A stretch of DNA of 31,975 bases from a virus: the IMG/VR virus record IMGVR_UViG_3300045927_000094, positions 1 to 31,975 of that record, one strand, 5' to 3'. Position 1 is the stretch's first letter. Every line of letters begins with the position of its first letter. The position numbers and the translations under genes were made by a program. Below are positions 1,069-31,179 of this stretch, in pieces. The notes beneath the pieces were generated by a model, which made no database searches, had not been told where the DNA came from, and saw only the letters and a list, made by a program, of their open reading frames with translations.

Positions 1069-1116
1069 TTTCTTTTCCTGTTTTTCCGTGTTTTATGCGA
1101 ATTGTGCAAATAGTAC

Positions 1117-1154: not shown

Positions 1155-1170
1155 TTCAACGGAGGAACTT

Positions 1171-1545: not shown

Positions 1546-1559
1546 CAAGGAGGCAACAA

Positions 1560-1778: not shown

Positions 1779-1917
1779 GAGATTACCGCAGGCCGAGCAG
1801 GACGAAATCCTGGGCCGCTTCGACGAGTGGACGGACAGCGCCGAGAACGAGCCGCCGGACGAAGAGTTGGCAGAGTGGGCGCAAGCGCTGATGGAAGAGG
1901 AGGACGAACAGTGCTAA
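1753..1917 (+). CDS. Small acidic hypothetical protein
   Basis: 54 residues from the ATG at 1753, preceded by AAAGGAGGAG; a GTG at 1735 is also in frame but lies upstream of that site. The protein is very acidic after residue 15 and ends in a run of Glu/Asp. No family recognised. Its start lies inside the preceding gene and its stop overlaps the GTG of the next one, so translation of the three is probably coupled. Acidic early phage proteins sometimes mimic DNA, but nothing here proves that. Confidence 0.5.
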   Translation: MSLTKRYLERLPQAEQDEILGRFDEWTDSAENEPPDEELAEWAQALMEEEDEQC

Positions 1918-2141
1918 CCCAAGCCGACGAAATCAAAGCAGAACTGGACAAGCTGGACGGTGAGATTGGCTGGCACGGACAGTGCATTGACGAATTGGAA
2001 GAGCGCATAAGCCGACATAGGCGCGACCGCGACGGCTTATACAGGCAGCGCGCGACACTGGAAGAGAAGCTACGCAGGGAAGAGGCCCGGCTTATCAGAC
2101 CGCAGCCGAAGGGCACGGTCTACGACAACTGGAAGATTTAA
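1911..2141 (+). CDS. Small coiled-coil protein
   Basis: 76 residues from GTG 1911, with AGAGGAGG about 7 nt before it; the GTG overlaps the stop of the upstream gene. The sequence is highly charged with heptad spacing from about residue 5 to 60, predicting one long coiled coil or helical hairpin. It contains an H-G-Q-C-I-D-E-L segment. No enzymatic motif. Function unknown. Confidence 0.55.
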   Translation: MLTQADEIKAELDKLDGEIGWHGQCIDELEERISRHRRDRDGLYRQRATLEEKLRREEARLIRPQPKGTVYDNWKI

Positions 2142-2178
2142 CAAGCTTGCGCTCGCTTCAGAGGGAGGCGGGCGCGAT

Positions 2179-2221
2179 GCCGGGCGGGGCGATTAGAGAG
2201 CGTTTGGGAACCCCGCCCGGC
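2179..2221 (+). promoter_or_regulatory. Intra-operon hairpin ahead of recT
   Basis: GCCGGGCGGGG (2179-2189) pairs perfectly with CCCCGCCCGGC (2211-2221) around a 21-nt loop. No T-run follows, so it is more likely an mRNA stability or processing element, or a factor-dependent attenuator, than a simple terminator. It ends about 10 nt before the AAAGGAGGAA site of the RecT gene. Confidence 0.55.
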
Positions 2222-2240
2222 CTTATCCAAAGGAGGAATT

Positions 2241-3287: not shown

Positions 3288-3643
3288 GAAACTATCCGCA
3301 GGAAATCGAAGAACAATCAATCGCACTCACCAGACTGAGCGAGGAGCGCGACCGGGCGAAGGAAGCATTAGAAGCCGTGACCGACGAGATCATGCGCGAA
3401 GTTCTTGGCGAGACTGAGCTGACCGGCAAACTGCGCTACACGAACGACAAGGCGCGCGACCTTGCCATTCGGGACAGGTGCCGCAATTCGCCCGCCTGGG
3501 TCGAAATCAGCGAAAGAGCGAGACTTGCGGAGATCGCTCGCGCTGCATCCGAAGCCAAGCGCGAACGCCTGCGCGGCGAGTTCAGCGAATCGAAGCTCGC
3601 TCGGCGGGAACGGATCGTGAACATGGAAGCGGCGATAAACTAG
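3284..3643 (+). CDS. Coiled-coil protein coupled to recT
   Basis: 119 residues beginning at the ATGA that overlaps the recT stop, with TTGGAGGA just upstream. Long charged helices (about 5-45 and 75-115) suggest a coiled-coil or helical-bundle protein. The tight overlap suggests co-translation with RecT and perhaps a shared role in recombination. No nuclease motif is visible, so it does not look like the missing exonuclease. Family not recognised. Confidence 0.6.
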   Translation: MRNYPQEIEEQSIALTRLSEERDRAKEALEAVTDEIMREVLGETELTGKLRYTNDKARDLAIRDRCRNSPAWVEISERARLAEIARAASEAKRERLRGEFSESKLARRERIVNMEAAIN

Positions 3644-3651
3644 GAGGGATC

Positions 3652-3939
3652 ATGAGTGAATCGAAGTATACGCCGGGGCCGTGGATAGCGTCCGGCGACA
3701 GCAAGTACATTGACAGTGACGACGGCTGGATTGCCGAGGTTAATTCGTGGCCGACAAGCCCGGTTAAACAAGTGCCAGAGGGAAGCGAGAAGCATCAAGC
3801 GAATGCCCGCCTGATAGCCGCCGCGCCGGATTTGCTGGACGCCCTACTTGAAATCGTGGCGCGCAATGAAATTCAGAATTGGTTCAATCTCGATCAGGCC
3901 CGCGCCGCAATCGCCAAAGCCAAAGGAGAGCAATCATGA
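3652..3939 (+). CDS. Phage protein of the TPGPW...ANARLIAAAPDLL type
   Basis: 95 residues, ATG at 3652 after GGAGGGATC. The N-terminal Y-T-P-G-P-W and the later A-N-A-R-L-I-A-A-A-P-D-L-L-D-A-L are a combination I recognise from small, widespread phage early proteins of unknown function. A Trp-rich, beta-like N-terminal half is followed by a helical C-terminal half. It overlaps the following HTH gene by 4 bp. No catalytic residues can be assigned. Confidence 0.65.
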   Translation: MSESKYTPGPWIASGDSKYIDSDDGWIAEVNSWPTSPVKQVPEGSEKHQANARLIAAAPDLLDALLEIVARNEIQNWFNLDQARAAIAKAKGEQS

Positions 3940-4175
3940 TGGACTTAAACGGGATAGTCATAACGCCTGATTCGCAGCGGCGGACAGAGACACGGGTAGA
4001 GACGCGGCCCGAATGGTTGACGGTTAAAGACGTATCCGAACTGTTCCTGCTTACGCCGGGTACGGTTTACAGCCTGTGTCGCAAGGGGCAGATGCCGCAC
4101 AAGAGAATCGGCAGGAGCTATCGCTTCAACTACGCGCAGCTTATCAAGTGGGCGGAAACGGAGGAGGCGGCGTAA
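3936..4175 (+). CDS. Excisionase-like helix-turn-helix protein
   Basis: 79 residues from the first of two adjacent ATGs at 3936, preceded by AAAGGAGAG. Residues about 27-72 form the MerR-like HTH_17/excisionase pattern: W-L-T-V-K-D-V-S-E-L-F, then T-P-G-T-V-Y-S-L-C-R-K-G-Q-M-P, then a K-R-I-G-R-S-Y-R-F wing. Such proteins bend DNA and direct integrase toward excision, or act as small transcription factors. It lies two genes upstream of the integrase on the same strand, which fits a recombination directionality factor. Direct evidence for Xis activity is lacking. Confidence 0.7.
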   Translation: MMDLNGIVITPDSQRRTETRVETRPEWLTVKDVSELFLLTPGTVYSLCRKGQMPHKRIGRSYRFNYAQLIKWAETEEAA

Positions 4176-4218
4176 AGGCCGCTCTTAACAGAACAATCCA
4201 AAGGTAAAGAAAGGAAAT

Positions 4219-4809
4219 ATGGGAACAAGGCATTTAATCGCAGTGCAGTTAGATGGTAAATACCGCATCGCTCAATACGGCCAGTGGGACGGCTATCCGA
4301 GCGGGCAAGGCGCGGACGTGCTGAAGTTTCTCCGCAAAATGAACCGACCGAAGTTTGAAGAGAAATTACGCGCCGCTTCTTTTTGCACGGATGCAGATTG
4401 GGCAGAGATCAAGGCCAGAATTGAGCGCGACAATCTAGGCGGGCACAACGAGCAGTGGAAAGAAGTTTGGCCGGAATTGAGCCGGGATACAGGGGCCAAG
4501 GTTCTAGCGCTGGTTCAAGAGAAGGAGGCAGGCATAAAGCTGAGAGATCAAATCGACTTTGCGGCAAACTCGCTGATGTGCGAGTGGGGTTACGTGATAG
4601 ACCTCGACACGAACACGCTTGAAGTCTTCAAGGGCTTTCAAAAAAATCCCTTGCCAGAAGGCGATCGATTCGCCAACTTCAGGCCGACCAATCCGCGCGA
4701 AGCCGTGGAGGGCTATTACCAGATTCGCAGGATTGCGTCATACTCGCTGGATAAACTGCCAACTCAAAGACGATTGGAGCGCGACTGTGACCCACCCGAC
4801 GAAGATTGA
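4219..4809 (+). CDS. Conserved hypothetical protein (GTRHL...YGQWDGYPSGQG type)
   Basis: 196 residues, ATG at 4219 after AAAGGAAAT. The N-terminal M-G-T-R-H-L and Q-Y-G-Q-W-D-G-Y-P-S-G-Q-G (residues 19-31) are hallmarks of a protein family I have seen repeatedly in phage and mobile-element genomes; its function is not established. The conserved H, D and aromatic residues look like an active or binding site. The C-terminal half is less regular. It stands between the HTH gene and the integrase. Confidence 0.7.
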   Translation: MGTRHLIAVQLDGKYRIAQYGQWDGYPSGQGADVLKFLRKMNRPKFEEKLRAASFCTDADWAEIKARIERDNLGGHNEQWKEVWPELSRDTGAKVLALVQEKEAGIKLRDQIDFAANSLMCEWGYVIDLDTNTLEVFKGFQKNPLPEGDRFANFRPTNPREAVEGYYQIRRIASYSLDKLPTQRRLERDCDPPDED

Positions 4810-4851
4810 CCCATGAGCAATTCTCATCCACAATCCGCCCGGTTCGCACAG

Positions 4852-4869
4852 CTCCGAGAAATCGGAGGA
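4852..4869 (+). promoter_or_regulatory. Hairpin enclosing the integrase ribosome binding site
   Basis: CTCCGA (4852-4857), loop GAAA, TCGGAG (4862-4867): a perfect 6-bp stem closed by a GNRA tetraloop. Four of the six GGAGGA bases (4864-4869) are paired. The ATG follows at 4877. This could hold integrase translation down until the hairpin is opened. A 43-codon frame starting at ATG 4813 runs through the hairpin and could do that by translation. Confidence 0.55.
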
Positions 4870-4876
4870 ACCAATC

Positions 4877-5965
4877 ATGCAGAAAAAGAGAAAGCGCCAG
4901 GATGGGGTCTGGAAAGACCCGGACTCCGGCATCTGGCGCTATAGATTTATGCTCAAGGGGAAGCGTTATTTTGGAGCGCTTCCCCAATGTAAAAACAAGA
5001 CCGAAGCGAAGGCGGCGCGTGATCGTCGCCGTATCGCTGTCCGTGAAGGCCGCGAGGATCGAATCGAAGCCGAAACAAACTTCAAAGCCTTCGTGGAGAA
5101 AATCTTTATGCCGTGGGTCGAGACGAACAAATCGAAAGGGACGTATCAGAGCTACCGATGGCGCTGCGACGATCTCATTAAAGCGTTCGGCTCGCTCCAC
5201 TTGCAGGAAGTATCGCAGATTGGAATCGAGAGATTCAAGCGGGATCAGTTGAAGCGAAAGACCAAGCGTGGGCAGGCTCAATCCCCGGCGTCGGTGAACC
5301 GTTATCTTCAGGTTCTCGCCTCGATCTTCAGCCGGGCCGGGGAATTGGGCCTGATCGAAAAGCGCCCGAAGATCGAAACCCTTCGAGAAGACAATCAGCG
5401 GCTTAGGTATCTCTCGACCGACGAGGAAAAGAGATTACTTGCCGCTGCACTGCCACACCTTCAGGATTTAATCGTCGTCGGACTGGCAACGGGTCTTCGA
5501 CGGGACGAACTCTTCAGCTTGCAAAAGGAGGATATTGACCTTGTTCTTAATCTGGTTACGGTCACTGATGGCAAAGGTGGGAAGCTTCGGACTGTCCCGC
5601 TCGATCCCGATGGCGCCGCTGCGCGGACTCTCGCATGGCTCAAGAAAACCTCAAGGTCGGAGTGGGTTTTTACTTCGCCGCATTCCGGGGGAAAGTTTAC
5701 GCGCGTGGATCGCTCGCTCGCGGCGGCTTGCAAAACTGCGGAAGTGGAGCCGATCACGCTTCACGCTCTAAGGCATACTTTCTGCACTCGACTCGCGGCT
5801 GCCGGTGTGGATGTTCGGACAATCAAGGAGCTGGCCGGACATTCGGATATCCAGACCACGATGAGATATCTTCATCTTGTCGAATCGAACAAGCATCAGG
5901 CAATTAGAAAACTGAGCGGCTACTACGAAGGCGCGGAAGTCGTTCCCATTAGGAAAGCGGGGTAA
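4877..5965 (+). CDS. int: Tyrosine recombinase, phage integrase
   Basis: 362 residues. It joins attP with the bacterial att site and, with an excisionase, reverses this. An N-terminal AP2-like arm-binding region (about 8-58, with W-R-Y-R-F and K-R-Y-F) is followed by a SAM-like core-binding domain (70-165) and the catalytic domain (175-345). The catalytic set is complete: R208 (T-G-L-R-R-D-E), K233 (D-G-K-G-G-K), H296-x-x-R299 (L-H-A-L-R-H-T-F), H322 (G-H-S) and the nucleophile Y331 (T-T-M-R-Y-L-H). The putative attP lies about 380 bp downstream. The start codon follows a GGAGGA site that can be hidden in a hairpin. Confidence 0.95.
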   Translation: MQKKRKRQDGVWKDPDSGIWRYRFMLKGKRYFGALPQCKNKTEAKAARDRRRIAVREGREDRIEAETNFKAFVEKIFMPWVETNKSKGTYQSYRWRCDDLIKAFGSLHLQEVSQIGIERFKRDQLKRKTKRGQAQSPASVNRYLQVLASIFSRAGELGLIEKRPKIETLREDNQRLRYLSTDEEKRLLAAALPHLQDLIVVGLATGLRRDELFSLQKEDIDLVLNLVTVTDGKGGKLRTVPLDPDGAAARTLAWLKKTSRSEWVFTSPHSGGKFTRVDRSLAAACKTAEVEPITLHALRHTFCTRLAAAGVDVRTIKELAGHSDIQTTMRYLHLVESNKHQAIRKLSGYYEGAEVVPIRKAG

Positions 5966-10343: not shown

Positions 10344-10782
10344 AAGCCTTCAAACAGTCATCTCCGAAGACCGCCGCGAAAAGTTCCTGCTCGCGGTCGC
10401 ATTCCCTTCGTCAAGATCGGCCAGTCTCATTGAAGCGGCAATGGAAGCCGGTATCAGCACGGCGGACGCCGTTCGATTGATGAACGACCCCGGATTCATC
10501 GCGCAAGTTCGACAAGTCACATTCGCCCAGGCTTCAGCGGCGCTGCACGGCGAAGGAATCGCGGATTTAATCAGGATCGCAACGCGCAGCGAGACAGACC
10601 GCGAGAAGCTGACGGCGTGGCGGACGATTGCCATGCTTACCGGCGACCTGAAACACAAGCACCAACACGACGTGAGAGTTACGTTTGAAGACATGCGCGA
10701 CCGGCGCGGCGGCGATGAACTTGCAGGATTATTTGATATTCGAGGCGCAGTTGTCGAGGCGGAGCTTGAAGATGCAGGCTAA
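10336..10782 (+). CDS. terS: Probable terminase small subunit
   Basis: 148 residues, ATG at 10336 overlapping the previous stop. The N-terminal part has an HTH-like pair (S-L-I-E-A-A-M-E-A-G-I-S-T-A-D-A-V-R-L), then an F-I-A-Q-V-R-Q-V-T-F-A-Q-A segment and a helical C-terminus. Size, an early HTH and immediate position before terL match small terminase subunits, which bind the packaging site and feed DNA to the large subunit. The call rests mainly on position; sequence similarity is weak. The terL start lies inside its 3' end. Confidence 0.6.
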   Translation: MSESLQTVISEDRREKFLLAVAFPSSRSASLIEAAMEAGISTADAVRLMNDPGFIAQVRQVTFAQASAALHGEGIADLIRIATRSETDREKLTAWRTIAMLTGDLKHKHQHDVRVTFEDMRDRRGGDELAGLFDIRGAVVEAELEDAG

Positions 10783-12700
10783 CAGTCCACAACTCATTCA
10801 GGTGGATCAGATCAAGATGATCCTCGACCCGGCGCGCATTGACCGGGAGTATCAAACCTTCCTGGCAGATGAAGACGCCTACATCGAGCGCCGATTCGCA
10901 GACCTCCGAGATTGGGACTTCCCTGTTTACTGCGCCGTCAATATTACCATCACGACGAAGGACGGGCGCGCCATTCCGTTCATTCTCAACCGGGTTCAAC
11001 TGGAATTTTTGCGCTGTATCCTCGAAGACCTTGCCGCTGGAAAGCCTGTGCGGATTCTCGTCGTCAAGGATCGGCAACTCGGCGTGTCCACAATCATTCT
11101 GATTTTCTTCTACTGGCTGACATCGCTTCGCCCGAATCGCAACACAATCGTTATCACGCATGACATGGATTCGGTTCACGACTTCTCAAGCCGTCTCGCC
11201 GCCGTGATTGACGAAGCGAACGATATGTTGACGCCGGAAATCAAAGCCGCCCGGCGCGAAGTCATCCACTTCGCCACGCCATCGGGGAGAGGCGGACACA
11301 GAAAGCGAGGACAGGGCGCGGGCCAAAACAGCAAGATACGCTTCTTCACCTGCAAGAAGGTGTCGCTGGGACGCTCCTTCACGATTCAATACGCGCACAT
11401 CTCAGAGGCCGCTTTTTACGGGGATTTGAAGCCGAAGGTAAGCGTTAAGAAATTGCTCGGCTCGCTCGCTCACGCGATACCGAAAGTTCCCGGCTCGATA
11501 CTCGTCATTGAAACCACGCCGAACGGCTTAAACGAAGTGGCCGAGATTTGGGACAAGGCAACCAAAGGAATAAACGAGTTCCGGCCTGTCTTCCTGTCGT
11601 CCATCGGCTCGGACGAATACCGCGATCCGCTGCCGGAGAATCAAACGCTGGACTTGTGCGAGGCCGAAGAGTCTTCCGGCGTTCCGACGCGATGGGGCAA
11701 CGAGGTTGCCGAATCGAAACTGATCCGCGAAGAGCTAATCAAATGGTATCCCGACTTCTACGCGAAATGGGGCGACAAGTGGCTTGACCGGGAAATCCTC
11801 GCGCGGCTGAACTGGCGCAGGCAATACATTGACGGGCCGTGCAATGGAGACAAGGCGCTATTCCGCCGGGAGTTTCCGCTTACGCCGCAACAGGGATTTG
11901 AGGCGACGGGAAAGAACTGTTTCGATTTGCGCTCCATCGGCCTGATGCGGAAGCGCGTCGAAGAGGAGGGCGTTCAGCCCCGGCGCTACGCCTACGTTGG
12001 CGACCCCGACAGCGACAACCCGAAAGACCAATTCCGACCGGATGATTATGGTCCGCTGGTAGTCTATGAGGGTCGACGCGAAGGCGTTCAGTATGTCCTT
12101 GCTGCTGATCCGGCGATGGGCAATCCCAACAGCGACCCGTCCGCGCTCATCGTCTATGCCGTGTCCGAAACAGAACCGCATCTGCGGGAAGTGGCTTCGT
12201 ACAACAAGATTATCAAGCCTGATGTATTCGCTGACCTGATTTACTACCTGGGAAAAGGTTACAACAACGCGCTCGTCGTCGTCGAAGACAACCCGGCGGG
12301 CGGCGGGCCTATTGTCAATCTGCACCTTCACCGGCAGGCGAAATATGAGCGGATTTATTTCCGGCTCGATCCTTACGACAAGAAGGCCGCGCCGAGGCCC
12401 GGATTCGTCACGCACGAACGCAACCGGGGGACGATCATCACCGGCCTCGATTTGCGAATCAGGAACGGTGAAATACTTCTGCGAACGCCGCTGCTGCTTG
12501 AACAGCTTGAACACTTCGTTGAGCTTGAGAACGGCGACATGGGCGCGGAACCCGGATACAACGACGACCTGGCGATGGCCGCGATGATTGGGGTTAATGC
12601 CAGTTTGCGAGTTTACGAACAGGTGATAAGGGAAGGCCCGCCGCCGGGAAGCGTCGGAGACTTGAAGAAAAAGGGCGTATTTAAGAGGGGGAGACGATAA
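10772..12700 (+). CDS. terL: Terminase large subunit
   Basis: 642 residues from ATG 10772 (GGAG 9 nt upstream, 11-bp overlap with terS); the frame is open from 10685 but that start is deep inside terS. It is the ATP-driven DNA packaging motor with a headful or site-specific nuclease. The ATPase P-loop variant K-D-R-Q-L-G-V-S-T is at 99-107 and a Walker-B-like H-I-S-E-A-A-F at 209-215. The RNase-H-like nuclease shows D446 (A-A-D-P-A-M-G), E505 (V-V-V-E-D-N-P-A-G) and D598/D599 (Y-N-D-D-L-A-M-A). Length fits large terminases. The stop shares a base with the portal start. Confidence 0.92.
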   Translation: MQANSPQLIQVDQIKMILDPARIDREYQTFLADEDAYIERRFADLRDWDFPVYCAVNITITTKDGRAIPFILNRVQLEFLRCILEDLAAGKPVRILVVKDRQLGVSTIILIFFYWLTSLRPNRNTIVITHDMDSVHDFSSRLAAVIDEANDMLTPEIKAARREVIHFATPSGRGGHRKRGQGAGQNSKIRFFTCKKVSLGRSFTIQYAHISEAAFYGDLKPKVSVKKLLGSLAHAIPKVPGSILVIETTPNGLNEVAEIWDKATKGINEFRPVFLSSIGSDEYRDPLPENQTLDLCEAEESSGVPTRWGNEVAESKLIREELIKWYPDFYAKWGDKWLDREILARLNWRRQYIDGPCNGDKALFRREFPLTPQQGFEATGKNCFDLRSIGLMRKRVEEEGVQPRRYAYVGDPDSDNPKDQFRPDDYGPLVVYEGRREGVQYVLAADPAMGNPNSDPSALIVYAVSETEPHLREVASYNKIIKPDVFADLIYYLGKGYNNALVVVEDNPAGGGPIVNLHLHRQAKYERIYFRLDPYDKKAAPRPGFVTHERNRGTIITGLDLRIRNGEILLRTPLLLEQLEHFVELENGDMGAEPGYNDDLAMAAMIGVNASLRVYEQVIREGPPPGSVGDLKKKGVFKRGRR

Positions 12701-14634
12701 TGCCGCGTAGAATCAGGCCATCAACCGCCGCGACAAAAGAAAACCTGAGAATTCGGCGTCAAACCGGCCCCGTCGTCGTCGAAACCGGCGATGCCGAGAA
12801 AGACGGCCCTATCTGGATGTCGCGCATCTTGAAGACCCTGCAAACCCGCATCGAGAGCGACAACGGCGACAGACATTGGGCCGCATATCACAACTGGTTT
12901 AACGGCCTGCAATGGCAGCACGAAGACACCAGCAAGAACAGTTGGGACTTGTACAGCGACACGATAACGAGCATCTACACGAATAACATCGTCCAGTCCA
13001 TCGCGTCCGCATACATGCCCTTCCTGCTCAACGGCAGGATAGAATTTAAGGTAAAGCCGAAGAAGACCGCCGAGACGAACGCCGCCGAGATTCACACCGG
13101 ACTGCTCAATTACGAGTGGAAAGAGCGCAAGGCAACCGAACAGGTGAAGATGATTATTGATGATGTCGTCGTCATCGGCCACGGCATCGCTGAGACGGCC
13201 TATTGCGTGGAAGTGGACGAAGCCCGGCGCAAGGATCAAGGCAACATCGAATACCGCGATTATGTGCGGCGAGATGCTGCTTACGTCGAGTGGCTCAGCC
13301 CCTTCGATTTCTTGCAGGATTTGACCGCGAAGGACGGGACGCCGCGCACCGCCCATTGGTGCGCGAAGCGGTTCTACGTTCCCTACGACGATCTTGTCGC
13401 CAACAAGCGATACAGCAGGCGCGTTACCGACCTGATTCAGACCGGAACGTCGAGCCACAACCTGACGACCCGCAGCGCGTTCAGAAACGACGCAAGATTC
13501 AGCGCGGGCGGGTTCTTCGACAAAGACCTGGGCGTCAGGGTTCCCGAAGAAACAAGCGTCGCTGTCTGGGAAATCTGGGACAAGAAGCACCGTCAGGTAA
13601 TCACGATGGCCGAGGGAATACCCTTCCCGCTCGACGTGGAAGAGTGGCGCTATCCGTACTTGGATGGATTCCCCTTTGTGATGATTCAGTTTTTGCGCGC
13701 AAAAAATCTGCTCTATCCCATCGGCGTACCGCGACAGCTCAAGGACGCGCAGTTGCAGACGAACCGCATCCGAACTCAGCAGATTCAGAACGTGCGGGCG
13801 CAGAAGAATATGTACGGCGCGACGGGCGACGTGGATAAGACGGCGCTTGACGACTTCGCCAATCTGCCCAACTTGAGCGTGGTTAGAATGCTACGCCAAG
13901 GCGATTTGTTCGCCATAGACAACCCGGAGATGAACAAAGACGCGCTGATTCTCGAACAGGCCATCGCCGCCGACGCGCAGCGCGCAACCGGGGCCGATGC
14001 GCTCTTTCAAGGGCAGCCGCTTCCCGACCGTACGACCGGGATAGAAGTCGCCACGCGCACGAACCTTGTCAGACTGAAGGCCGACGACAAAGTGGCGAAC
14101 GTCGAAAACGGCGTCATCGAGATTGCAACGCAGATTCTTCAACATCTGAAGGCTAATCGAGTAGTTCCCGACGTGGTGGAGATAGTCGGGCTGCTCGGCT
14201 CGCAGTGGCGTCAATACACGTTCGCGGAAATTCAGGAGGAAACCGATGTCGAAGTTTCCTACTTCGCCGCGCCGCAGTCCAACCCGGAGGTGGAACGCCA
14301 GCAGAAAACGCAAGTCGCGCAAGTGGCCGCGCAGATGGCCCCGCTGATGGCTGAGTCGGGATCGCCAGTGCAGATCAATTTCGCGGAGGTGTTCGCGTGG
14401 CTGCTCAAATCGTTCCCCGACATCAAGGACGCCGGGCGATTCTTTCAACCGGCGAATGTCGTGCAGCCTCCATTGGAAGAAACAATCGCGCCAGCGGGCA
14501 CGGGGTTGACGCCCGCGCTCGCGGGACAACTGGCCCCGGCGCAAGTTGCGGGCAGTCCGTCGGTAGGAACGCCCGGAGAAGGAACAGGATCGTCCGATCT
14601 CTTAATGCAAATCTTTGGGGGATTGGGCCAATAA
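12700..14634 (+). CDS. Portal protein
   Basis: 644 residues, ATG overlapping the terL stop (TAATG). Portal proteins form the dodecameric ring at one capsid vertex through which DNA passes. The layout supports it: length typical of podovirus portals, an N-terminal alpha/beta wing (W-F-N-G-L-Q-W near 67-73), a central P-Y-L-D-G-F-P-F-V-M-I-Q-F segment near 317-329, a long-helix region rich in Q/R (D-A-Q-L-Q-T-N-R-I-R-T-Q) and a Gln-rich C-terminal helix followed by a flexible Pro/Gly tail. Position right after terL is the strongest argument. No frameshift seen. Confidence 0.85.
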   Translation: MPRRIRPSTAATKENLRIRRQTGPVVVETGDAEKDGPIWMSRILKTLQTRIESDNGDRHWAAYHNWFNGLQWQHEDTSKNSWDLYSDTITSIYTNNIVQSIASAYMPFLLNGRIEFKVKPKKTAETNAAEIHTGLLNYEWKERKATEQVKMIIDDVVVIGHGIAETAYCVEVDEARRKDQGNIEYRDYVRRDAAYVEWLSPFDFLQDLTAKDGTPRTAHWCAKRFYVPYDDLVANKRYSRRVTDLIQTGTSSHNLTTRSAFRNDARFSAGGFFDKDLGVRVPEETSVAVWEIWDKKHRQVITMAEGIPFPLDVEEWRYPYLDGFPFVMIQFLRAKNLLYPIGVPRQLKDAQLQTNRIRTQQIQNVRAQKNMYGATGDVDKTALDDFANLPNLSVVRMLRQGDLFAIDNPEMNKDALILEQAIAADAQRATGADALFQGQPLPDRTTGIEVATRTNLVRLKADDKVANVENGVIEIATQILQHLKANRVVPDVVEIVGLLGSQWRQYTFAEIQEETDVEVSYFAAPQSNPEVERQQKTQVAQVAAQMAPLMAESGSPVQINFAEVFAWLLKSFPDIKDAGRFFQPANVVQPPLEETIAPAGTGLTPALAGQLAPAQVAGSPSVGTPGEGTGSSDLLMQIFGGLGQ

Positions 14635-15201: not shown

Positions 15202-15654
15202 ATGCCCCTCTACGAATTTGAATGTGAAACTGATGGCGTATTCGAGGCGCTGCTAACCCACGTTCCGGGCAAGGGATATTACCCTTGTCCAGTGTGCGAT
15301 ATTCCAGCGCCCTATATTCCGTCGCTTTACAATCCCCGGCCCGATACTCTTTGGGCAGGCCATCAGATAGAAGGCCGGGGCTACTTCACTTCCAAATCGA
15401 AACTGGATAAGACCATGAAAGAGAAACACCACATACCCGTCGGAGATCGTACCGACGGCGAAGGCATGCGGAAGATGGCGCGCGAGGCGGCAAAGGCCCG
15501 CGATGAGAAATTCGCACAGGAAAGCCGGGACTTCCTGCGGGGTGAGATGGCAAAACGAGACTTGCTCGATTCAGAGGGCAACCTTCGCCCGGAAGCCTCG
15601 AAACAGCTCACCGATACGCCCCTGATTCACACCAACGACGAGCGGGTTAAATGA
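15202..15654 (+). CDS. FmdB-like zinc-ribbon protein in the head operon
   Basis: 150 residues. The start M-P-L-Y-E-F-E-C, then Y-Y-P-C-P-V-C (C29-x-x-C32) resembles the N-terminal FmdB-type zinc ribbon, but the first knuckle has only one cysteine (C8, followed by E-T-D), so D11 or nothing may replace the fourth ligand. Residues 65-150 form charged helices resembling a coiled coil. Its role in head assembly is unknown; regulator, assembly chaperone or minor capsid component are all possible. Stop overlaps the next ATG. Confidence 0.55.
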   Translation: MPLYEFECETDGVFEALLTHVPGKGYYPCPVCDIPAPYIPSLYNPRPDTLWAGHQIEGRGYFTSKSKLDKTMKEKHHIPVGDRTDGEGMRKMAREAAKARDEKFAQESRDFLRGEMAKRDLLDSEGNLRPEASKQLTDTPLIHTNDERVK

Positions 15655-15875: not shown

Positions 15876-16874
15876 ATGTCTACCATCAAGATGACCGCGC
15901 CAGTGGGCGCAGGAACAGGCGTACAGAAGTTTTCGATCAAGCCGGGCGGCATGGGGCTGCAACTGGACAGCGCGGCTCCGCCTGCTGCTCCGTCCAGCGT
16001 AGACACGCAACCCGATCCGCCCGCCGCCTTGCCTCCTGAACCCGCAGCCCCCGCGAACGCATTCGCGCGCATGCACCCCGGCGTTGATCCGGCGACAGTG
16101 AATTATGTCTTTGACGAGAAAGCCCGGCGAATGCGGCTGCTGCCGATTGAAGCGCCGCCCGAAACGCCGGTCGAAATCCCGCCCGCGCCGGTTGCGCCAG
16201 TAGCGCCGCCGGTTCCTTCCGCGCCCGATTCCGTGGCTGAATTGAAGGCCCAACTCGAACAGCAAAACCAACTGATGACGGCGATGATTCAAGCCCAACT
16301 GACAGGCAGGCCGCTTGCCGAAGTGCTGAGCGGAACGCCTGCCGCACAGCCTGAGCCGGACTTGAGCGGACTCGATCTTTACGACGACGCGCAGCGGGCG
16401 CAGTTCGTCAAACAGGTGAGAGCCGATGCGCTCAACGCGGCGCGCGCGGAAGTTCAAGCCCAGATGCGCGGACACATGCCCTCGATTCAGGGCGCGCAAA
16501 GGCATGGGGAGTTCTTCGAGATTCAGGCCGCGCACGGAGCGGAGCCGGACTTCCAACAGAAGGCGGCGCTTGCCAATCAACTCATCGGGAACAATCCCAA
16601 CGTTTCCTTCAAAGCTACCTACGACCTGATTTCACAAATTCAAAAGGGACTCGGCGGCGCAAACGGCGCGAAGGTCGAAGAACCCGCGAAGCAGCCCGGC
16701 CTGGGCGTGTTGACCAAAGAACAAGCCGACGCGAAAGCGGCGCAGGCGGCAAAGTATCCGGCCTCGAACGGCGCGAGAGCAATAGGCAAGCCCGAACCGC
16801 CGCCGGGTCTGAAGGGCTTCAAACAGCATGCGCTATGGGTAGCCCATCAACAGGCGATGGGCCATATGGATTAA
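15876..16874 (+). CDS. Head scaffolding protein
   Basis: 332 residues behind TAGAGGGGTT. Scaffolds shape the procapsid and leave before or during packaging. The protein is Pro/Ala-rich and probably disordered at about 30-120, has a short coiled coil at about 118-140 (E-L-K-A-Q-L-E-Q-Q-N-Q-L), a second helical region (170-260) and a basic C-terminal helix with H-A-L-W-V-A-H-Q-Q, the kind of end that contacts the capsid lattice. The gene immediately precedes the major capsid gene, the usual order. No protease motif is seen. Confidence 0.75.
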   Translation: MSTIKMTAPVGAGTGVQKFSIKPGGMGLQLDSAAPPAAPSSVDTQPDPPAALPPEPAAPANAFARMHPGVDPATVNYVFDEKARRMRLLPIEAPPETPVEIPPAPVAPVAPPVPSAPDSVAELKAQLEQQNQLMTAMIQAQLTGRPLAEVLSGTPAAQPEPDLSGLDLYDDAQRAQFVKQVRADALNAARAEVQAQMRGHMPSIQGAQRHGEFFEIQAAHGAEPDFQQKAALANQLIGNNPNVSFKATYDLISQIQKGLGGANGAKVEEPAKQPGLGVLTKEQADAKAAQAAKYPASNGARAIGKPEPPPGLKGFKQHALWVAHQQAMGHMD

Positions 16875-16883
16875 GGAGAACAC

Positions 16884-17897
16884 ATGGCTTTAGACACTTC
16901 TTTCAACCGCGTGGTAGCTGCAACCTTGCCGCTCTACGCCCCGCGCGTGACCGAATCTATAGTGGGGTCAATCGCCCTACTGTGGAAGATGGCCATGATG
17001 GATGCGGTCGAAACCCGGCCCGGCGGAACTCAGATAGTCGAACCGACGATCCTGACCGCCAATACCACTGTAGGGGCGTACAGCGAGTTCCAAACACTCA
17101 GCACGACCCTGCAGACTGACCCGAACGTGGCGAGCTACCTGTGGAAGATCATTGCCGGAACTGAGGGCTTGTCCCTGCTTGAACAGGGCAAGAACTCCAA
17201 CAGCGCAACCGCGCCGATTGACCTCTGGGACGCGATCATCAACCGGCTTGCGCTCTCGATGCGAATCGAAGTCAACCGCGAGCTGTTCCTTGATGGAACC
17301 GGGAGCGGCGGCAACGAACTGACCGGCCTCGCGCTCGGTCTGGACTTCGCCGGGACAAACAGCGTTTACGGAAACATTGACTCCGCGACGTTTACGAACT
17401 GGCGCAATCAGACGGAAGCAAGCCCAGGCGACATCGCAACCGCGCCAACTACGCTTCCCCCGGCCATGCGCCGACTGGCGAACAAGTGTTCGAGCCAGAA
17501 CGAGTGGCCGACGATGTACATCACGTCGGTTGAAGTGCACGAAGCCTGGGAAGGAACGCTCATCAGCAACGAGCGTTACCAGCGCGAAGCGTTTGACGAG
17601 GATATGGTTCGTTCGGGATTTCAGAACTACATCTTCAAAGGTGGAGTGGTTTGCTTCGATGACCATATCTTCCCGCACACCAACGCCGCCGCGACTGCCA
17701 CAGCTGGGCATGGATTCCTGGCGCTCAATCTCAAATATCTCAAATTCGTCATGATGGACAACTTTGATTTCGTGATGAGCGATCCGATCAGGCCATTTAA
17801 CCAGATGGCCGACACGATTCAGATGATCATGCACGGCAATTTGGTCATGAATAACCGTCGGCGTCAGGGCCGCATGAACGTGGAGTACACGCCATAA
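16884..17897 (+). CDS. Major capsid protein
   Basis: 337 residues, ATG after AAGGAGAAC. It builds the icosahedral shell. Pattern and length match HK97-fold capsid proteins without a cleaved delta domain: N-terminal arm, an E-loop-like segment (about 55-80), a helix-rich P-domain with R-I-E-V-N-R-E-L-F-L-D-G-T-G (near 131-144), an S-V-E-V-H-E-A-W-E region, and an A-domain with F-D-F-V-M-S-D-P-I-R-P near the C-terminus. Downstream of the scaffold and upstream of the decoration-like gene. Identification is by context plus overall look. Confidence 0.85.
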   Translation: MALDTSFNRVVAATLPLYAPRVTESIVGSIALLWKMAMMDAVETRPGGTQIVEPTILTANTTVGAYSEFQTLSTTLQTDPNVASYLWKIIAGTEGLSLLEQGKNSNSATAPIDLWDAIINRLALSMRIEVNRELFLDGTGSGGNELTGLALGLDFAGTNSVYGNIDSATFTNWRNQTEASPGDIATAPTTLPPAMRRLANKCSSQNEWPTMYITSVEVHEAWEGTLISNERYQREAFDEDMVRSGFQNYIFKGGVVCFDDHIFPHTNAAATATAGHGFLALNLKYLKFVMMDNFDFVMSDPIRPFNQMADTIQMIMHGNLVMNNRRRQGRMNVEYTP

Positions 17898-17907
17898 GGA
17901 GGCAAAT

Positions 17908-18411
17908 ATGTCAGTAGTTTTAGGATGCGATCCCACTCGCGTTGATACCGCCGCCGCGTTCACCGTCGGAACCGAGAGCGATCATCCCGATACGATAAAC
18001 TTCGCGGGAACCAAACTGCGCTACGTTAAGGCGGGAGGCGCGATTACTCTCGGAGCCGCGCTGAAGATTAAGGCCGATGAAACGACGGAACCAAACGTAT
18101 TGATCGAGACATCCGCGATTCAGCAGCCCGTCGTTGCTATCGCGCACGTTGCCATAGCGTCGGGTTCGTTCGGATGGGTGACGAGGCATGGGCGCGTGGC
18201 GTCCGCGAAGGCTGCGGCGTCCACTGCGGCTGAGGCGCGGCTTGGCTCGTCGGCCTCGGCTGGAATACTGCAAACGCTCACGCAGGCGGATTCCAACTTC
18301 ACAAGCAACGATTACTTCGAACTGTTGGCCTACGCGCAGTCGCCCGTTATCGCGCTCGACGCAAACGACTCGAACGGGGCGAACATCGAGGTTTTCATAG
18401 GGCAAGGATGA
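17908..18411 (+). CDS. Capsid decoration / head fibre-like protein
   Basis: 167 residues, ATG after AAGGAGGCAA. Beta-rich, with Gly and small residues. The segment A-S-G-S-F-G-W-V-T-R-H-G-R-V followed by A-E-A-R-L-G-S-S-A-S-A-G resembles the compact beta fold of phage head decoration proteins (DUF2190-like or gpD-like). Such proteins bind the expanded capsid and stabilise it. Its stop overlaps the start of the glyco/methyltransferase fusion gene, so the two are co-translated; it is therefore also a candidate substrate of that enzyme. Confidence 0.6.
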   Translation: MSVVLGCDPTRVDTAAAFTVGTESDHPDTINFAGTKLRYVKAGGAITLGAALKIKADETTEPNVLIETSAIQQPVVAIAHVAIASGSFGWVTRHGRVASAKAAASTAAEARLGSSASAGILQTLTQADSNFTSNDYFELLAYAQSPVIALDANDSNGANIEVFIGQG

Positions 18412-20447
18412 GCAATCCACTATGGCTGAATCTGGGTTGCGGTGACTACGAATTAGCCTGTTACCGCAACCTGGACAGCAAAAAAGGTGACACGATTTAT
18501 CCGTTGGCCGACTACAAAGACGGCGAAGCGGACGAAGTGCGCGCAAGTCACGTACTCGAACACTTCCCGCATGGGCAAGTGGCCGACGTGGTGAAGGAAT
18601 GGGCGCGCGTTCTCAAGCCAGGGGCAAAGCTGAAGATTGCCGTTCCTGATTTCGACTGGATAGTAAAAGCCTACTCGAACGGGCATCGGGGAGATGCGCG
18701 GCTTGAGCATTATCTATTCGGCGGACAGGTGGACAGCGATGACTACCATAAGACTTTCTTCAACGAAGACAAGTTAAAGGCGCTTCTCGAAGGCGCGGGG
18801 CTTGTTGACGTGAAGAAGTGGGAGTCCGACGCCGACGACTGTTCGAGCTATCACGTCTCCTTGAATCTCGAAGGGCGCAAGCCGTTGCCGCCCAGACAGT
18901 GCGCGCATGGCGTTTCGCGCGAAGGCGCGGGAACAAAGCATTCAACGTTCCCATTTGGAATCTGCGAATGCTGCCGCAACTCGTTCGCAAAAACGAGCGC
19001 GACCATGACGCATTGCCGCAAGTGTGAACCGGCGCAGGCCGCGCAGGAACCGGAGCCGAAACTTACCTACGCGCCGACGCCGACCTATGAGTTTATCAAG
19101 CACTCGAAGGGCGTTATTCACGTTGGGGCGAACACCGGGCAGGCGCGGGACATCTACGCGCAGGCCGGATTGCCGGTTGTCTGGATTGAGGCAATCTCCG
19201 ATGTGTGCAGGCGACTAGCGGACAACGTGGCGCGCTACCCAAACCAGCGGGCGCTGAACTATCTAATAGCAGATAAGGACGACCACCCCTACATGTTCAA
19301 GGTCGCCAGTAACGACGGCCAATCATCGTCCATCTTCGACTTTGGTAAGCACACGGAAATCTGGCCGGATATAGCTTACACCCACACGGCATATATCAAA
19401 GGCTACACGCTAAAGACCGTCCTGCGGCAGAACGCCGTCAAGCTCGACGAATACGACACGCTAATTCTCGACACGCAAGGCTCCGAACTGCTTGTACTGA
19501 AGGGCGCGGAAAGCATTCTCGACAAGTTCAATTTCATTCGCGCCGAGGCTTGCGACTTCGAGTTATACAAGGGCGGCTGTCTTCTCAAAGACCTCGATGA
19601 ATACCTGATACCGCGCGGCTTTGAACGGGTGATGACGTGGCATTACAAGCGCAGCCCGCAGCCCGAAGTGGAACGAATCTTCGAGGCGCTCTATCAGAGG
19701 AAGACCGCGAAGCGCCCGCAGATTACGCCGATCTACATCCACGACGAGAAGAGCGGCGCGAAGGCGATATATCGAGTGGCGGCGCTCGCCAGCGTTCCGC
19801 GCCTGGGCTTTCAGGCCCATATGAGGTCTTCCGAACAGGCGTTCGCAGACCCGCGCATCCCGATCCTGCGAGAGTCGGGCTGCGTCTTCTGGGAAATGAC
19901 GATGCAGAACGGGTTCAACTCCCTGATAAAAGCGGGCGCGGACTACATCATCACGACCGATTACGACAGCATCTTCACCAATGAGGATGTAAAGGAACTT
20001 CTGCGCCTTATCGTCCGCTATCCCGACGCCGACGCCATAGCCGCGTGGCAGGCGTCACGCTGGAAAGATCATCCGGCGCTCGCGGGAGTCAGAACGCAGG
20101 ACGGGCAGTGGGGCGCGGGCGTTCCAATCGAGGATATGAAAAGCCTCGACCTGACCCGCGTCGATAACACCGTTTACGGCCTGACGATCATTAAGGTATC
20201 GGCCATCCAGAAGATGTCGAAACCCTGGTTTCTGAATGTGCCGAACGAAGACGGGGAATGGGAACACGGCAAGCACGACGCGGATAGTTATTTCTGGTGG
20301 AAGTTCCGAGAGGCGGGCAACAGCCTGTATATGGCGAACCGTGTACGCATAGGCCATCTGCACGAAGATGTTTTATGGCTGGATGACGACTTCCAGCTTA
20401 TCAAGCAGGACTTGACGGACTATTACTCAAAGGGCCGTCCGTTCTGA
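18408..20447 (+). CDS. Multidomain methyltransferase - zinc cluster - FkbM-type methyltransferase - glycosyltransferase
   Basis: 679 residues in one uninterrupted frame, ATGA overlapping the decoration-gene stop. Domain 1 (5-155): class I SAM methyltransferase, motif I L-N-L-G-C-G (7-12), then S-H-V-L-E-H-F and a V-L-K-P-G segment. A Cys/His cluster follows (C186, C188, C189, C203, C206, with H202), likely zinc. Domain 2 (229-415): FkbM-like methyltransferase, with V-I-H-V-G-A-N-T-G (236-244) and L-I-L-D-T-Q-G-S-E (352-360). Domain 3 (438-665): GT-A-type glycosyltransferase, with T-D-Y-D-S (517-521) as the DxD-like metal motif and a late E-H-G-K-H-D-A-D. FkbM enzymes methylate sugar hydroxyls, so domains 2 and 3 suggest building and capping of a glycan. 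Position suggests virion glycosylation; host-surface modification is the alternative. Confidence 0.8.
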   Translation: MSNPLWLNLGCGDYELACYRNLDSKKGDTIYPLADYKDGEADEVRASHVLEHFPHGQVADVVKEWARVLKPGAKLKIAVPDFDWIVKAYSNGHRGDARLEHYLFGGQVDSDDYHKTFFNEDKLKALLEGAGLVDVKKWESDADDCSSYHVSLNLEGRKPLPPRQCAHGVSREGAGTKHSTFPFGICECCRNSFAKTSATMTHCRKCEPAQAAQEPEPKLTYAPTPTYEFIKHSKGVIHVGANTGQARDIYAQAGLPVVWIEAISDVCRRLADNVARYPNQRALNYLIADKDDHPYMFKVASNDGQSSSIFDFGKHTEIWPDIAYTHTAYIKGYTLKTVLRQNAVKLDEYDTLILDTQGSELLVLKGAESILDKFNFIRAEACDFELYKGGCLLKDLDEYLIPRGFERVMTWHYKRSPQPEVERIFEALYQRKTAKRPQITPIYIHDEKSGAKAIYRVAALASVPRLGFQAHMRSSEQAFADPRIPILRESGCVFWEMTMQNGFNSLIKAGADYIITTDYDSIFTNEDVKELLRLIVRYPDADAIAAWQASRWKDHPALAGVRTQDGQWGAGVPIEDMKSLDLTRVDNTVYGLTIIKVSAIQKMSKPWFLNVPNEDGEWEHGKHDADSYFWWKFREAGNSLYMANRVRIGHLHEDVLWLDDDFQLIKQDLTDYYSKGRPF

Positions 20448-20460
20448 GAGGAAAAGATTT

Positions 20461-20676
20461 ATGCCTTCAATGAAGAAAATGAAGAAAACATCCATCGGGA
20501 AAAAGGGGCAACTCAACACGAATACCACGAACCCGAAGGTAGGCGGCGCCGACAGCCGCAAGGGTTTCGTGATGTCGAACCCGTCCTCGACCAGCATGGG
20601 CGCGGGACGCAAGCCGGGCGGATACGGCGGGAAGGCGATGGGAACGGCGAAAGGCAGAGGCGGGAGGAGTTATTGA
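20461..20676 (+). CDS. Small basic Gly-rich protein
   Basis: 71 residues, ATG at 20461 after GAGGAAAAG. Lys-rich N-terminus, then low-complexity Ser/Gly/Asn and a G-R-G-G-R-S-Y end. Probably disordered. Small basic proteins of this type occur in podovirus head operons and may be minor virion components or DNA-associated. No family assigned. Confidence 0.5.
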   Translation: MPSMKKMKKTSIGKKGQLNTNTTNPKVGGADSRKGFVMSNPSSTSMGAGRKPGGYGGKAMGTAKGRGGRSY

Positions 20677-21306: not shown

Positions 21307-22005
21307 ATGGCGACCGTTAATGCGCTGGCGCTGAAACTGATTACGGAATTTGGCGAGAGCACGGATGATACCGATCTCGTCGCCGTGGTCGAGCCGCGCA
21401 TTAACGAAGCCTTGCAGGAAATCGCCCTCGCCACGAACTTCAACCCCTTCAAGGCCCGCGCGACATTCGCAACCGTGATCGGTCAGGCCCAATACAACAT
21501 GCCTGCAACTGCGCGCGAGTTGAATCAACTCCGCTTCGTGACGGACTCTCAGCCGATCACGATGTCGACCATGCAGGATTTGGCGATGCGCGGCGCCAGG
21601 CTCGAAGACTCCGGGCGTCCCACGTTCTGGCTTGAGGATGGCGTCGTCCAATCCGGGGCCAACAACCTTCTGAGAATCCGCCTTGTCCCGGTTCCTGCCG
21701 CCGTCGAGAACATCGAAGAGGAACACTACTTCGACCCGACCGATACGGCGTCGGCCTCGCATCTTCAGGTTCCCGATAGCTGGCTCATCTGCGTTCTCGA
21801 CCGTACCCGTTCGTGGTTCCTGGAGAACGAGGGCAAGTATGACGCCTCCGCGCTGGCGATCCGCCGATATGAAAAGAATCTGAAGCTCCTCACTGGCAGG
21901 GAGAACGGCAAAATCGCGCGCAAGATCACGCTTCAGCCCGTTGACCTCGCGGGAGTCAGAACCCGACGAGGTCCGCGCCTTCCAAACAACTTTCCAGATG
22001 TATAG
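21307..22005 (+). CDS. Head-tail adaptor (connector) protein
   Basis: 232 residues. In podoviruses a ring of adaptor subunits (T7 gp11, P22 gp4) attaches below the portal. The pattern is typical: an N-terminal helix with I-N-E-A-L-Q-E-I-A-L-A-T-N-F, a beta segment Q-A-Q-Y-N-M-P-A-T-A-R-E, then strands and a C-terminal helical R-R-Y-E-K-N-L-K-L-L. The following gene is gp10-like, reinforcing the assignment. Whether it is closer to the T7 or the P22 type cannot be said. Confidence 0.7.
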   Translation: MATVNALALKLITEFGESTDDTDLVAVVEPRINEALQEIALATNFNPFKARATFATVIGQAQYNMPATARELNQLRFVTDSQPITMSTMQDLAMRGARLEDSGRPTFWLEDGVVQSGANNLLRIRLVPVPAAVENIEEEHYFDPTDTASASHLQVPDSWLICVLDRTRSWFLENEGKYDASALAIRRYEKNLKLLTGRENGKIARKITLQPVDLAGVRTRRGPRLPNNFPDV

Positions 22006-30100: not shown

Positions 30101-30337
30101 AAGAAGGACGAACCGGAGGACACATTCAAGGCCCGCGTCCAACAGTTCGCACAGAACTACACAAGCTACGGGCTGCAGCTCATTCAGGATTCCCGCTTCC
30201 AGGCCGCGTCCGACGACGTGAAAGAACGCGCATTGAAGAAGCTCAACGAGAAAGCGAAGGGGCTAACCCATAAGGAATTTGCCAACCCGGAGATTGAACT
30301 CGCTCCGGGCTTGATTCTCGACATGGTGGAGAAATGA
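27164..30337 (+). CDS. Large internal virion / ejection protein
   Basis: 1057 residues, the largest gene. It begins with two tandem motifs of the G-R-A-x-K-x-K-Y-P-G-A-Y-x-D type (about 7-22 and 27-42), a repeat I know from phage virion proteins. A long Ala/Gly-rich helical region follows, then segments resembling the large polyvalent phage proteins: N-L-L-T-N-P-V-G-R-A-L-D-F-G (near 524) and F-L-R-I-P-A-N-A-V-F-K-A (near 724). A Gly/Ala hydrophobic patch near 780 could insert in membrane. No lysozyme or transglycosylase signature is visible. Likely the main DNA-ejection protein. Confidence 0.6.
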   Translation: MPDVTELGRAVKRKYPGAYNDLSDADLGRAFKAKYPGAYDDFTDIPAPAQPSPAAPGGFRAGISGFAAPVTEALSVGLQRGGAFFAENALALAETIQGMKRGDVEPLQEAMELGARGAASTSAQLGDVITGSNRAAEVPGADPQALAEAKRQQMERRTKRSEFKEGFQGVQKMRESADVRAARDPSLIGKAIRRGTEFATLAAPAVATGVATGGSVPVMTTLAALQSAGQPENLALNVALEAAPIPLGRAFSEGVDSVRRTFGKGAAQVIEAEAAPAIAPRFLREGLPPAPTVDPLPVAFSKLGTDNIEQIGAMIANANRRFGKKRTPEQIQSSMEDYKALQQLTPEEHAALGEVLPVRNYAPVKSDFAGEGAYAQDIADIPMAQADAQLRANIRGIGDFFEQEGRALQAAEDAAIMGDIGPAATSGQIVQPARVSAADLITSAPPSVRAAAAGVTGPRVGADLDALNVAAAQGAPPVPPGDVPTGFGGQAPQGQQALFDAAARSPWQDTVLAYIRANLLTNPVGRALDFGQTIINQFADAALRPVAAAVDVVVSKLTGQRSILGPNIRDTGRAFGSIRQGLRDARETLRTGRQAIDSAATDDVLYGREIRSGLGRGFDVPVNGLFRLIGAMDAPFRRFAFARNLQERARLAAINEAKRGRIPRDQTVARARELIDRDDIIAAAVRDGEKAVLSESNVISSWVAAQTRNSPTARLAVGLLQTFLRIPANAVFKAADFAGLGGVKMLYKIARGGLRKAKGQAFFRDLEEQRVFAQNVAAGSFGVAGFMLGMELEERGKLEGYFYVGRRDFPGRHVPTSIEIGGTRYDVGRLGGFIFAPLFIGATYNRLRKEDAGKANALLRSFSGLVQQAPALGYHGAPAKAGRILSADDMVGELKKEAGSTVSGLIPARGFLGATAKALDPAKKREAEGFTGPIMNAIPGLREMLPITGNEALDAAVDRNSPLLLEVQRLKIRVAELQRKKDEPEDTFKARVQQFAQNYTSYGLQLIQDSRFQAASDDVKERALKKLNEKAKGLTHKEFANPEIELAPGLILDMVEK

Positions 30338-31179
30338 AAATCCACATCCCGCAGAAATACATTCACGGCAGGATCAAGCGCGGCAGCATTTCCGTGGGCG
30401 GCGGCAGCGGTGAGGCGTCCCTGGCGCCCACTGCCATTGACGACATAAGAGTATCCGTCGAACCTGAAGGACTCGCGGGATTCGCGGACGACGGCCCTAT
30501 CGACGTATGGGCCGATGAAAGCGGGCATTCCCCGGCAAACGATTTTATTCAGGCGACCGAAGCAAATAAACCGATATGCAAGACGAACATTCTCAACGGG
30601 TTTCGCATTGCGCGGTTTGATGGCGTCTCCGACCGTATCAGCACTCAATACGGGCCAAAGGACGATACGGCAGACGGCTATACATTTGCTGCGGTCTTTC
30701 GTACTAACAGCCTGACCGCAAGACAGCTCATTCTGTGGACAGGCGATGCCAATAGTCCCGGTTTTCCGCCAAGTGGATTTGTCACATCCCCATTTTCAAT
30801 AACTGATGATGGCACGGCTAATTTAGTTGGTAATTTATTACACAATCCCGCTGGCCCCGACACTGTTAAATCGTACGCTTCGCTAACCGACACTGCGGAT
30901 TTCCACATTGGAATCTGCACCTTCAGCGGGATGACAGTCAACCCCGGCAACAAGACGACCCAGATGTTTCTTGATGGGGTCTTCGCCTCCCCTCAGACAT
31001 CGTCATTTAGTCTGGATTACACACAATTTGTAGCTTTAGTGAGGATGGGCACGCCGGGCAATCTGGCGTCCAATTTCTTCAATGGCGACATTGCCGCCGC
31101 TGCCATTTTTGCAAGGGCGCTGTCTTCGACTGAGATTACAGGGCTGTACACATTTTGGCGCAACAAATTCAATCTTTAA
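30334..31179 (+). CDS. LamG / concanavalin-A-like domain protein
   Basis: 281 residues, ATGA overlap with the preceding gene. A short basic/Gly-rich N-terminus (1-30) may anchor to the particle. Residues about 85-275 show the laminin-G-type jelly-roll pattern, with F-D-G-V-S-D-R near its start and F-F-N-G-D-I-A-A-A-A-I-F-A-R-A-L-S at its end. Such domains bind carbohydrates. Expected role: receptor recognition or decoration. The gene is at the end of the structural run. Confidence 0.65.
   Translation: MKIHIPQKYIHGRIKRGSISVGGGSGEASLAPTAIDDIRVSVEPEGLAGFADDGPIDVWADESGHSPANDFIQATEANKPICKTNILNGFRIARFDGVSDRISTQYGPKDDTADGYTFAAVFRTNSLTARQLILWTGDANSPGFPPSGFVTSPFSITDDGTANLVGNLLHNPAGPDTVKSYASLTDTADFHIGICTFSGMTVNPGNKTTQMFLDGVFASPQTSSFSLDYTQFVALVRMGTPGNLASNFFNGDIAAAAIFARALSSTEITGLYTFWRNKFNL

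Follow-up and report, generated by a model that had tools for sequence, protein, structure and literature searches.

A single gene at 18408..20447 (+ strand) in the window, which is the whole 31,975-nucleotide stretch of viral DNA analyzed here, encodes a 679-aa fusion of a class I SAM methyltransferase (MT), a Cys/His insert, an FkbM-family methyltransferase and a glycosyltransferase (GT), as assigned by Pfam and PHROGs profiles, structure prediction and Foldseek. As judged from sequence, this protein is probably a virion glycan enzyme that adds an O-methylated sugar to the cement protein encoded next to it. GT-MT fusions behind capsid genes are, by the same kind of evidence, widespread in uncultured phages. 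The virion-glycan reading now rests on synteny, on cassette exchange and on several unrelated MT partners, and not on one window.

Translation of the window confirmed what the earlier note on this DNA had said of the gene itself: it is one uninterrupted 679-aa frame, its start overlaps the stop of a decoration-type (cement-like) gene in the tetranucleotide ATGA at 18408-18411, and it is the second gene downstream of the gene for the major capsid protein (MCP). The 4-bp ATGA overlap is also present in five relatives (L001, L002, L003, L005 and L006). The MCP gene (16884..17897) was identified by phrog_9953 (2.9e-37) and is Myxococcus phage Mx8/Mx9-like. It is preceded by genes for the terminase large subunit (10685..12700; phrog_2, 4.1e-25) and the portal protein (12700..14634; phrog_1216, 1.5e-9), and by a 332-aa gene (15876..16874) that is syntenic in all relatives and is placed as a scaffold or protease by position only. 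Downstream of the fusion are a 71-aa gene (20461..20676) and a SU10-type head-tail adaptor gene (21307..22005; PF24175, 1.1e-10), with two small genes between the fusion enzyme and the adaptor. All of these genes are on the + strand. The six close relatives of the fusion enzyme (L001-L006) are 66-69% identical to the window protein. A profile built from six sequences matched none of the sequences of solved structures, Rfam gave no matches, and a tblastn search with the window protein against 50,697 phage records gave matches confined to the FkbM region, in cyanophage and marine virus records.

The N-terminal class I SAM methyltransferase domain (18408..18881; residues 1-158) was recognized by Pfam, by phrog_6636 (1.7e-11) and in the predicted model. 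Within residues 34-135, Methyltransf_23 matched at 29.5 bits (gathering threshold 27) and Methyltransf_11 at 27.1 bits (gathering threshold 21.2). Motif I of class I methyltransferases is present as LNLGCG at residues 7-12. AlphaFold2 modeled residues 1-160 with pLDDT above 90, and Foldseek of this domain returned many class I SAM methyltransferase folds in the PDB. Motif I and the EH motifs are invariant or nearly so across 41 sequences.

The FkbM-family domain (19062..19703; residues 219-432) was matched by PF05050 at residues 238-405 (E 1e-9; 39.2 bits against a gathering threshold of 22.7) and by phrog_8156 (2.7e-6). Both family motifs are present, the SAM-binding VGANxG motif as IHVGANTG at 237-244 and the D-x-(E/Q)-G motif as LDTQGSELLVLKGA at 354-367. 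This domain was modeled poorly by AlphaFold2, the alignment being too shallow, and its assignment therefore rests on the Pfam match and the motifs. Its relatives are confined to the window's virus group and to distant FkbM proteins of cyanophages such as S-SRM01 and P-SSM2, which are ~29-30% identical to it. In those cyanophage records only the FkbM domain was matched, with the window MT and GT unmatched, and the proteins are annotated as FkbM methyltransferases or as hypothetical. FkbM enzymes are able to methylate non-sugar hydroxyls, and NoeI is a relative of FkbM. NoeI methylates fucose (PMC6275314).

The C-terminal domain (19773..20444; residues 456-679) is, by its predicted model, a GT-A fold glycosyltransferase; alignments, Foldseek and a weak match to phrog_1574 point the same way. 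GT-A hallmarks include the DxD motif that binds metal and nucleotide-sugar (PMC7185993). The corresponding DYD occupies residues 518-520, and both D518 and D520 are invariant in 41 relatives. In the same alignment D626 is invariant and D624 nearly so, the two being equated with the xED motif by position only, and H650, a candidate for the C-terminal His of GT-A enzymes, is invariant there although the relative L173 has Gln instead. Pfam matches to the window GT stayed below threshold (Glycos_transf_2, E 0.13). Most of residues 440-679 were modeled with pLDDT above 90, and the best PDB match of the model is 2c0n, the A197 protein of STIV (E 8e-9; TM 0.65 by target length; 14% identity), followed by COLGALT1, mimivirus R699 and LH3, with E values of 1e-6 to 8e-9 overall. 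The class I methyltransferase with motif I at 7-12, the FkbM-like methyltransferase at about 229-415 and the GT-A glycosyltransferase with DYD at 518-520 that had been proposed from the letters were thus each recovered, with confidently predicted SAM methyltransferase and GT-A folds for the two outer domains. Residues ~455-510 of the enzyme occur in two allelic forms, one in L002/L005/L006 and the other in the window, L001 and L003, in otherwise similar enzymes, which suggests recombination within the GT.

Between the two methyltransferase domains lies a 56-residue Cys/His-rich insertion (18882..19049; residues 159-214) that is private to the window. The Cys and His residues that had been proposed as a cluster at 165-206 are present (C165, H167, H178, C186, C188, C189, H202, C203 and C206). 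However, the insertion is missing from all six close relatives (L001-L006), so the cluster is not a regular part of the enzyme. No Pfam family matched it, no relatives were found among IMG/VR viral contigs, and no source was found elsewhere in the window or in the relatives; its pLDDT is ~30. A zinc cluster as a conserved part of the enzyme was rejected on these grounds.

Relatives of the GT were collected from IMG/VR. A scan seeded with conserved stretches of the whole protein returned mostly MT-GT fusions of ~400 aa that lack FkbM, and a scan seeded with the GT only gave 425 relatives, the top 80 of which were retrieved. After same-contig repeats were removed by identical sequence, at least 129 distinct GT ORFs were obtained. 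MT-GT (85) and Methyltransf_9-GT (20) are the most frequent, MT-FkbM-GT accounts for 6 (window included) and FkbM-GT for 4, and the rarer arrangements are MT-FkbM2-GT (2), GT-MT, GT-FkbM2-MT, GT-FkbM2 and Methyltransf_9-MT-GT (1 each). An MT was not detected in 8 of the 129, and the Methyltransf_9 assignment was confirmed by direct comparison with Pfam for seven proteins of that group. The fused MTs are of four types and stand before or after the GT, which is the sole domain common to all family members. Among the GT-seeded set, taken from the best 80 of 425 and for which fusion was not a selection criterion, 67 of 74 GTs were fused to at least one MT. The N-terminal domain fused to the GT in L242 and L245 is weakly Methyltransf_23-like without a clear SAM motif I and is possibly a decayed methyltransferase. 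A nucleotide-sugar epimerase (phrog_540, 7.7e-86) was found among the sampled upstream genes and was assigned to L025 by gene layout only; it could supply the sugar donor for the MT-GT of that contig.

A GT-MT architecture does recur beside capsid genes, where the earlier note had proposed to look for it. Of the fused GT ORFs, 107 have 1.5 kb or more of DNA on their upstream side, and 99 of these begin within 1.3 kb behind an MCP gene, as compared to 42 of 1128 (3.7%) of the remaining ORFs of 200 aa or longer on the same contigs; the sequences counted are mutually related, and the selection of IMG/VR contigs by their viral genes favors those that bear an MCP. A PHROG scan assigned 41 of 44 sampled large upstream genes to HK97-type major head proteins, a family unlike the window MCP. 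Fused GTs are found behind MCP genes of two capsid lineages. The small gene between the HK97-type MCP and the fusion matched phrog_5707 in 25 of 43 instances. The HK97-group fusions differ from the window in that most lack FkbM, in their MCP family and in this small neighbor. Fusions such as L035, L055, L073 and L197 (MT-GT or Methyltransf_9-GT) share with the window the GT core, the slot and a fused SAM methyltransferase. A search of 84,980 cellular genomes showed the fusion on six short MAG contigs only; lone relatives of the MT occur widely in bacterial genomes. Tblastn searches of annotated phages with the MT-GT relatives L055 and L013, and with the small neighbor of the HK97 group, found none, and a literature search did not find post-capsid GT-MT fusions described as a phage family. 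The statement in the earlier note that no such four-part fusion was known stands for the exact arrangement. The four-part form with the Cys/His insert is unique to the window contig, and the three-part MT-FkbM-GT form is restricted to the window's virus group. The statement does not extend to GT-MT fusions as such, which are common behind phage capsid genes in metagenomes.

The slot between the cement gene and the 71-aa gene was compared among viruses with an MCP 81-96% identical to that of the window. It holds MT-FkbM-GT in L001-L006, GT-MT in L009 and FkbM-GT in L173, and it is empty in L167, L170/L172 and L171, where the 71-aa gene directly follows the cement gene. In L008, where the MCP is off the contig, the content is GT-FkbM2-MT, and in L193/L194 it is GT-FkbM2. 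A quick tree of the GT domains, of which the starred groups alone were used, places the GT-first forms in one starred clade and the FkbM-GT and MT-FkbM-GT forms in another, with MT-FkbM-GT nested within FkbM-GT. Against L009 and L008, identity is 60-71% for the MT domain of the window but only 45-48% for its GT. The histories of MT and GT are therefore partly separate, which is consistent with domain shuffling.

Comparison of the window with L009 delimits a two-gene segment (17945..20470, + strand) that extends from approximately codon 13 of the cement gene to just past the enzyme stop. DNA identity is 81-84% over the region from terminase to MCP, weaker at the gene at 14615, drops from ~0.88 to ~0.5 near 17945-17965 and is back to 0.97 at ~20470, from where it is again 81-84%. 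At the protein level the backbone is 73-96% identical, with one gene (14615) at 56%, the cement protein is 35% identical and the enzyme is permuted. Because one breakpoint falls at the beginning of the cement gene and the other at the enzyme stop, the two genes have been replaced as a pair. L181 provides the converse case, with backbone genes 29-50% identical to those of the window, a cement protein 55% identical and an FkbM-GT in the slot. Across the identity table, cement type tracks enzyme type and not the backbone. These results raise the possibility, put forward tentatively, of an exchangeable cassette that re-dresses the virion, in which a cement protein and a GT with interchangeable methyltransferases give different O-methylated coats on the same shell. 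Such a cassette would recombine among phages whose capsids are almost the same. It would be a counterpart, in viruses of bacteria, of antigenic variation, and one found in many uncultured phages.

The proposed acceptor is the 167-aa cement/decoration-like protein encoded at 17908..18411 (+ strand). Phage_cement_2 (PF09956) was matched by 5 of 12 homologues, the best at 3.6e-6, whereas the window copy itself gave no Pfam cement match. Its model is weak (pLDDT 65) and resembles capsid decoration or head-fibre proteins, though not significantly (Foldseek E of at least 0.08). A C-terminal ALDxxDSN motif is present in 8 of 8 aligned cement proteins that accompany an FkbM-GT enzyme (drawn from the window, L001-L006, L173 and L181) and absent from the 4 aligned cement proteins that accompany a GT-MT or an empty slot; because the cement sequences are related, the motif marks only a candidate acceptor region. 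N-glycosylation sequons in the cement proteins, considered as an acceptor marker, were by eye present both with and without an enzyme and were dropped.

Taken together, these features suggest the following mechanism. The enzyme would be made late, alongside the head proteins, and its GT-A domain would move a sugar from a host nucleotide-sugar donor to a protein of the capsid surface. The acceptor would most likely be the 167-aa cement protein, encoded upstream and translationally coupled, and it is named mainly because cement type follows enzyme type and not the backbone. The class I and FkbM methyltransferases would then O-methylate the transferred sugar, much as two PBCV-1 methyltransferases act on a capsid glycan. 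Since the GT is present in every occupied slot, it is read as the primary enzyme; it would be the constant core and the methyltransferases exchangeable add-ons. The cement gene and the enzyme would travel between viruses as a two-gene cassette, and because they move together a particle could acquire a different methylated coat with its capsid unchanged. The benefit may be altered recognition or adsorption. The earlier proposal of virion glycosylation and methylation is supported in this form by synteny and by the cassette swap; the part it gave to a zinc cluster has fallen away.

An enzyme of this kind could instead modify a host surface polysaccharide, in serotype conversion or superinfection exclusion, and merely be located in the head operon. 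Serotype conversion by phage-encoded GTs is well established, and stand-alone relatives of the MT are frequent in bacterial genomes. A tyrosine recombinase gene at 4877-5965 (Phage_integrase, 8e-31 in Pfam) indicates that the window phage is probably temperate, and lysogenic conversion is therefore possible. However, late-operon genes are normally silent in lysogens, and no flippase or polytopic GT partner was found when the larger ORFs of the window were scanned with Pfam. In 99 of 107 cases, across two capsid lineages, the fusion comes directly after the MCP gene and a small head gene, and the enzyme was co-replaced with the cement gene; both observations also argue against a host-surface substrate, which we regard as unlikely. 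The same synteny need not mean a link to the substrate; it could come from a site that tolerates insertions, the slot behind the cement gene serving as a cargo site for an enzyme whose substrate is unrelated to the head. In L167, L170/L172 and L171 the slot holds nothing, and the enzyme is therefore dispensable. Cargo slots are usually mixed, though, and this one holds one GT family across two unrelated capsid lineages, with a cement type that goes with the enzyme type and not with the backbone. A permissive slot thus seems quite improbable as the explanation.

GTs and methyltransferases also occur in the hypermodification of phage DNA, which is one role of phage GTs (PMC12619734), and the fusion might add sugar and methyl groups to the bases of phage DNA or to nucleotides. 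Yet the nearest folds of the GT are capsid and protein GTs rather than DNA glucosyltransferases, FkbM and Methyltransf_11-type enzymes are not DNA methyltransferase families, the scanned window ORFs contain no nucleotide-modifying enzymes, and the gene is in the head operon, outside the replication region; action on DNA is very unlikely. Equally hard to credit is a catalytically dead protein whose enzyme-like domains have a structural use, for example as a lectin-like head decoration. The weak and possibly degenerate MT domains of L245 and L242 would fit such a use, but the DXD motif, further acidic residues of the GT-A fold and the MT motif I and EH motifs are invariant or nearly so in 41 sequences. 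Modification of the virion remains the preferred reading.

The closest functional parallel to a virion-modifying fusion is A064R of PBCV-1. According to the portions of the PBCV-1 literature drawn on here, the terminal rhamnose on the capsid glycan receives its 2-O-methyl group from A064R (GT-GT-MT) and its 3-O-methyl group from A061L, and most PBCV-1 antigenic classes go back to mutations in a064r (PMC7019647, PMC9614988). Like A064R, the window protein is a single virus protein of ~640-680 aa in which GT-A and SAM methyltransferase domains are fused, and by analogy it may work in the same way. It is not a member of that family: A064R as described has two GTs and one MT in the order GT-GT-MT, whereas the window protein has the order MT-FkbM-GT with a single GT. 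In PBCV-1 the second methyltransferase is a separate gene (A061L) and the host is a eukaryotic alga, whereas the window fusion is from a phage. The target of A064R is the outer end of an N-glycan carried by the MCP, while the acceptor proposed here is the cement protein. The portions of those accounts used here report neither an FkbM domain in A064R nor an adjoining cement gene, and the likeness of its GT to that of the window is taken here as one of function.

Other viral enzymes resemble parts of the fusion. In STIV, an archaeal virus with a glycosylated MCP, the GT-A enzyme A197 is essential (PMC10551542). This best structural match of the window GT is a stand-alone enzyme without methyltransferase domains. 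Mycobacteriophage GTs (Che8 gp110, Corndog gp38 and Myrna) modify the capsid and tail tube (PMC12363180; PMC11600133, citing Freeman 2023), and cluster O mycobacteriophages have an O-methyltransferase gene followed by three GT genes, whose products act on capsid and tail (PMC11600133). The mycobacteriophage GTs and methyltransferases are encoded by separate genes, whereas the window has a fusion. When the window protein was compared by tblastn with the 50,697 phage records, it did not match the Che8 gp110, Corndog gp38 or Myrna GTs.

Phage capsid glycosylation had previously been shown in a few mycobacteriophages. The present finding is a family of post-capsid GTs, nearly always fused to a methyltransferase, on more than 100 uncultured phage contigs. 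It gives a testable pair of enzyme and acceptor, the cement protein and the adjacent fusion enzyme, and a natural comparison is available in viruses with the same capsid and four slot contents. If the proposal is true, phage virions would commonly wear methylated glycan coats that are exchanged rapidly, and this would bear on adsorption, competition between phages, environmental stability and immune recognition by animals.

Several further features were observed in the window and in the family. The gene at 15202-15654 encodes a 150-aa zinc-ribbon-like protein (Zn_ribbon_8, E 1.6e-4, below the cut-off) with its zinc-ribbon-like motif at the protein start, and all relatives have kept this gene between portal and MCP. 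A tail-region protein (30334-31179) has a Concanavalin A-like lectin/glucanase domain (Laminin_G_3, E 4.5e-6; 27.3 bits against a cut-off of 27.6). In L036, two complete fusions at 795-4877, an MT-FkbM2-GT and an MT-GT, lie one gene apart, the module being duplicated in tandem with other MTs in each copy; L031 similarly carries a GT and an MT-GT close together.
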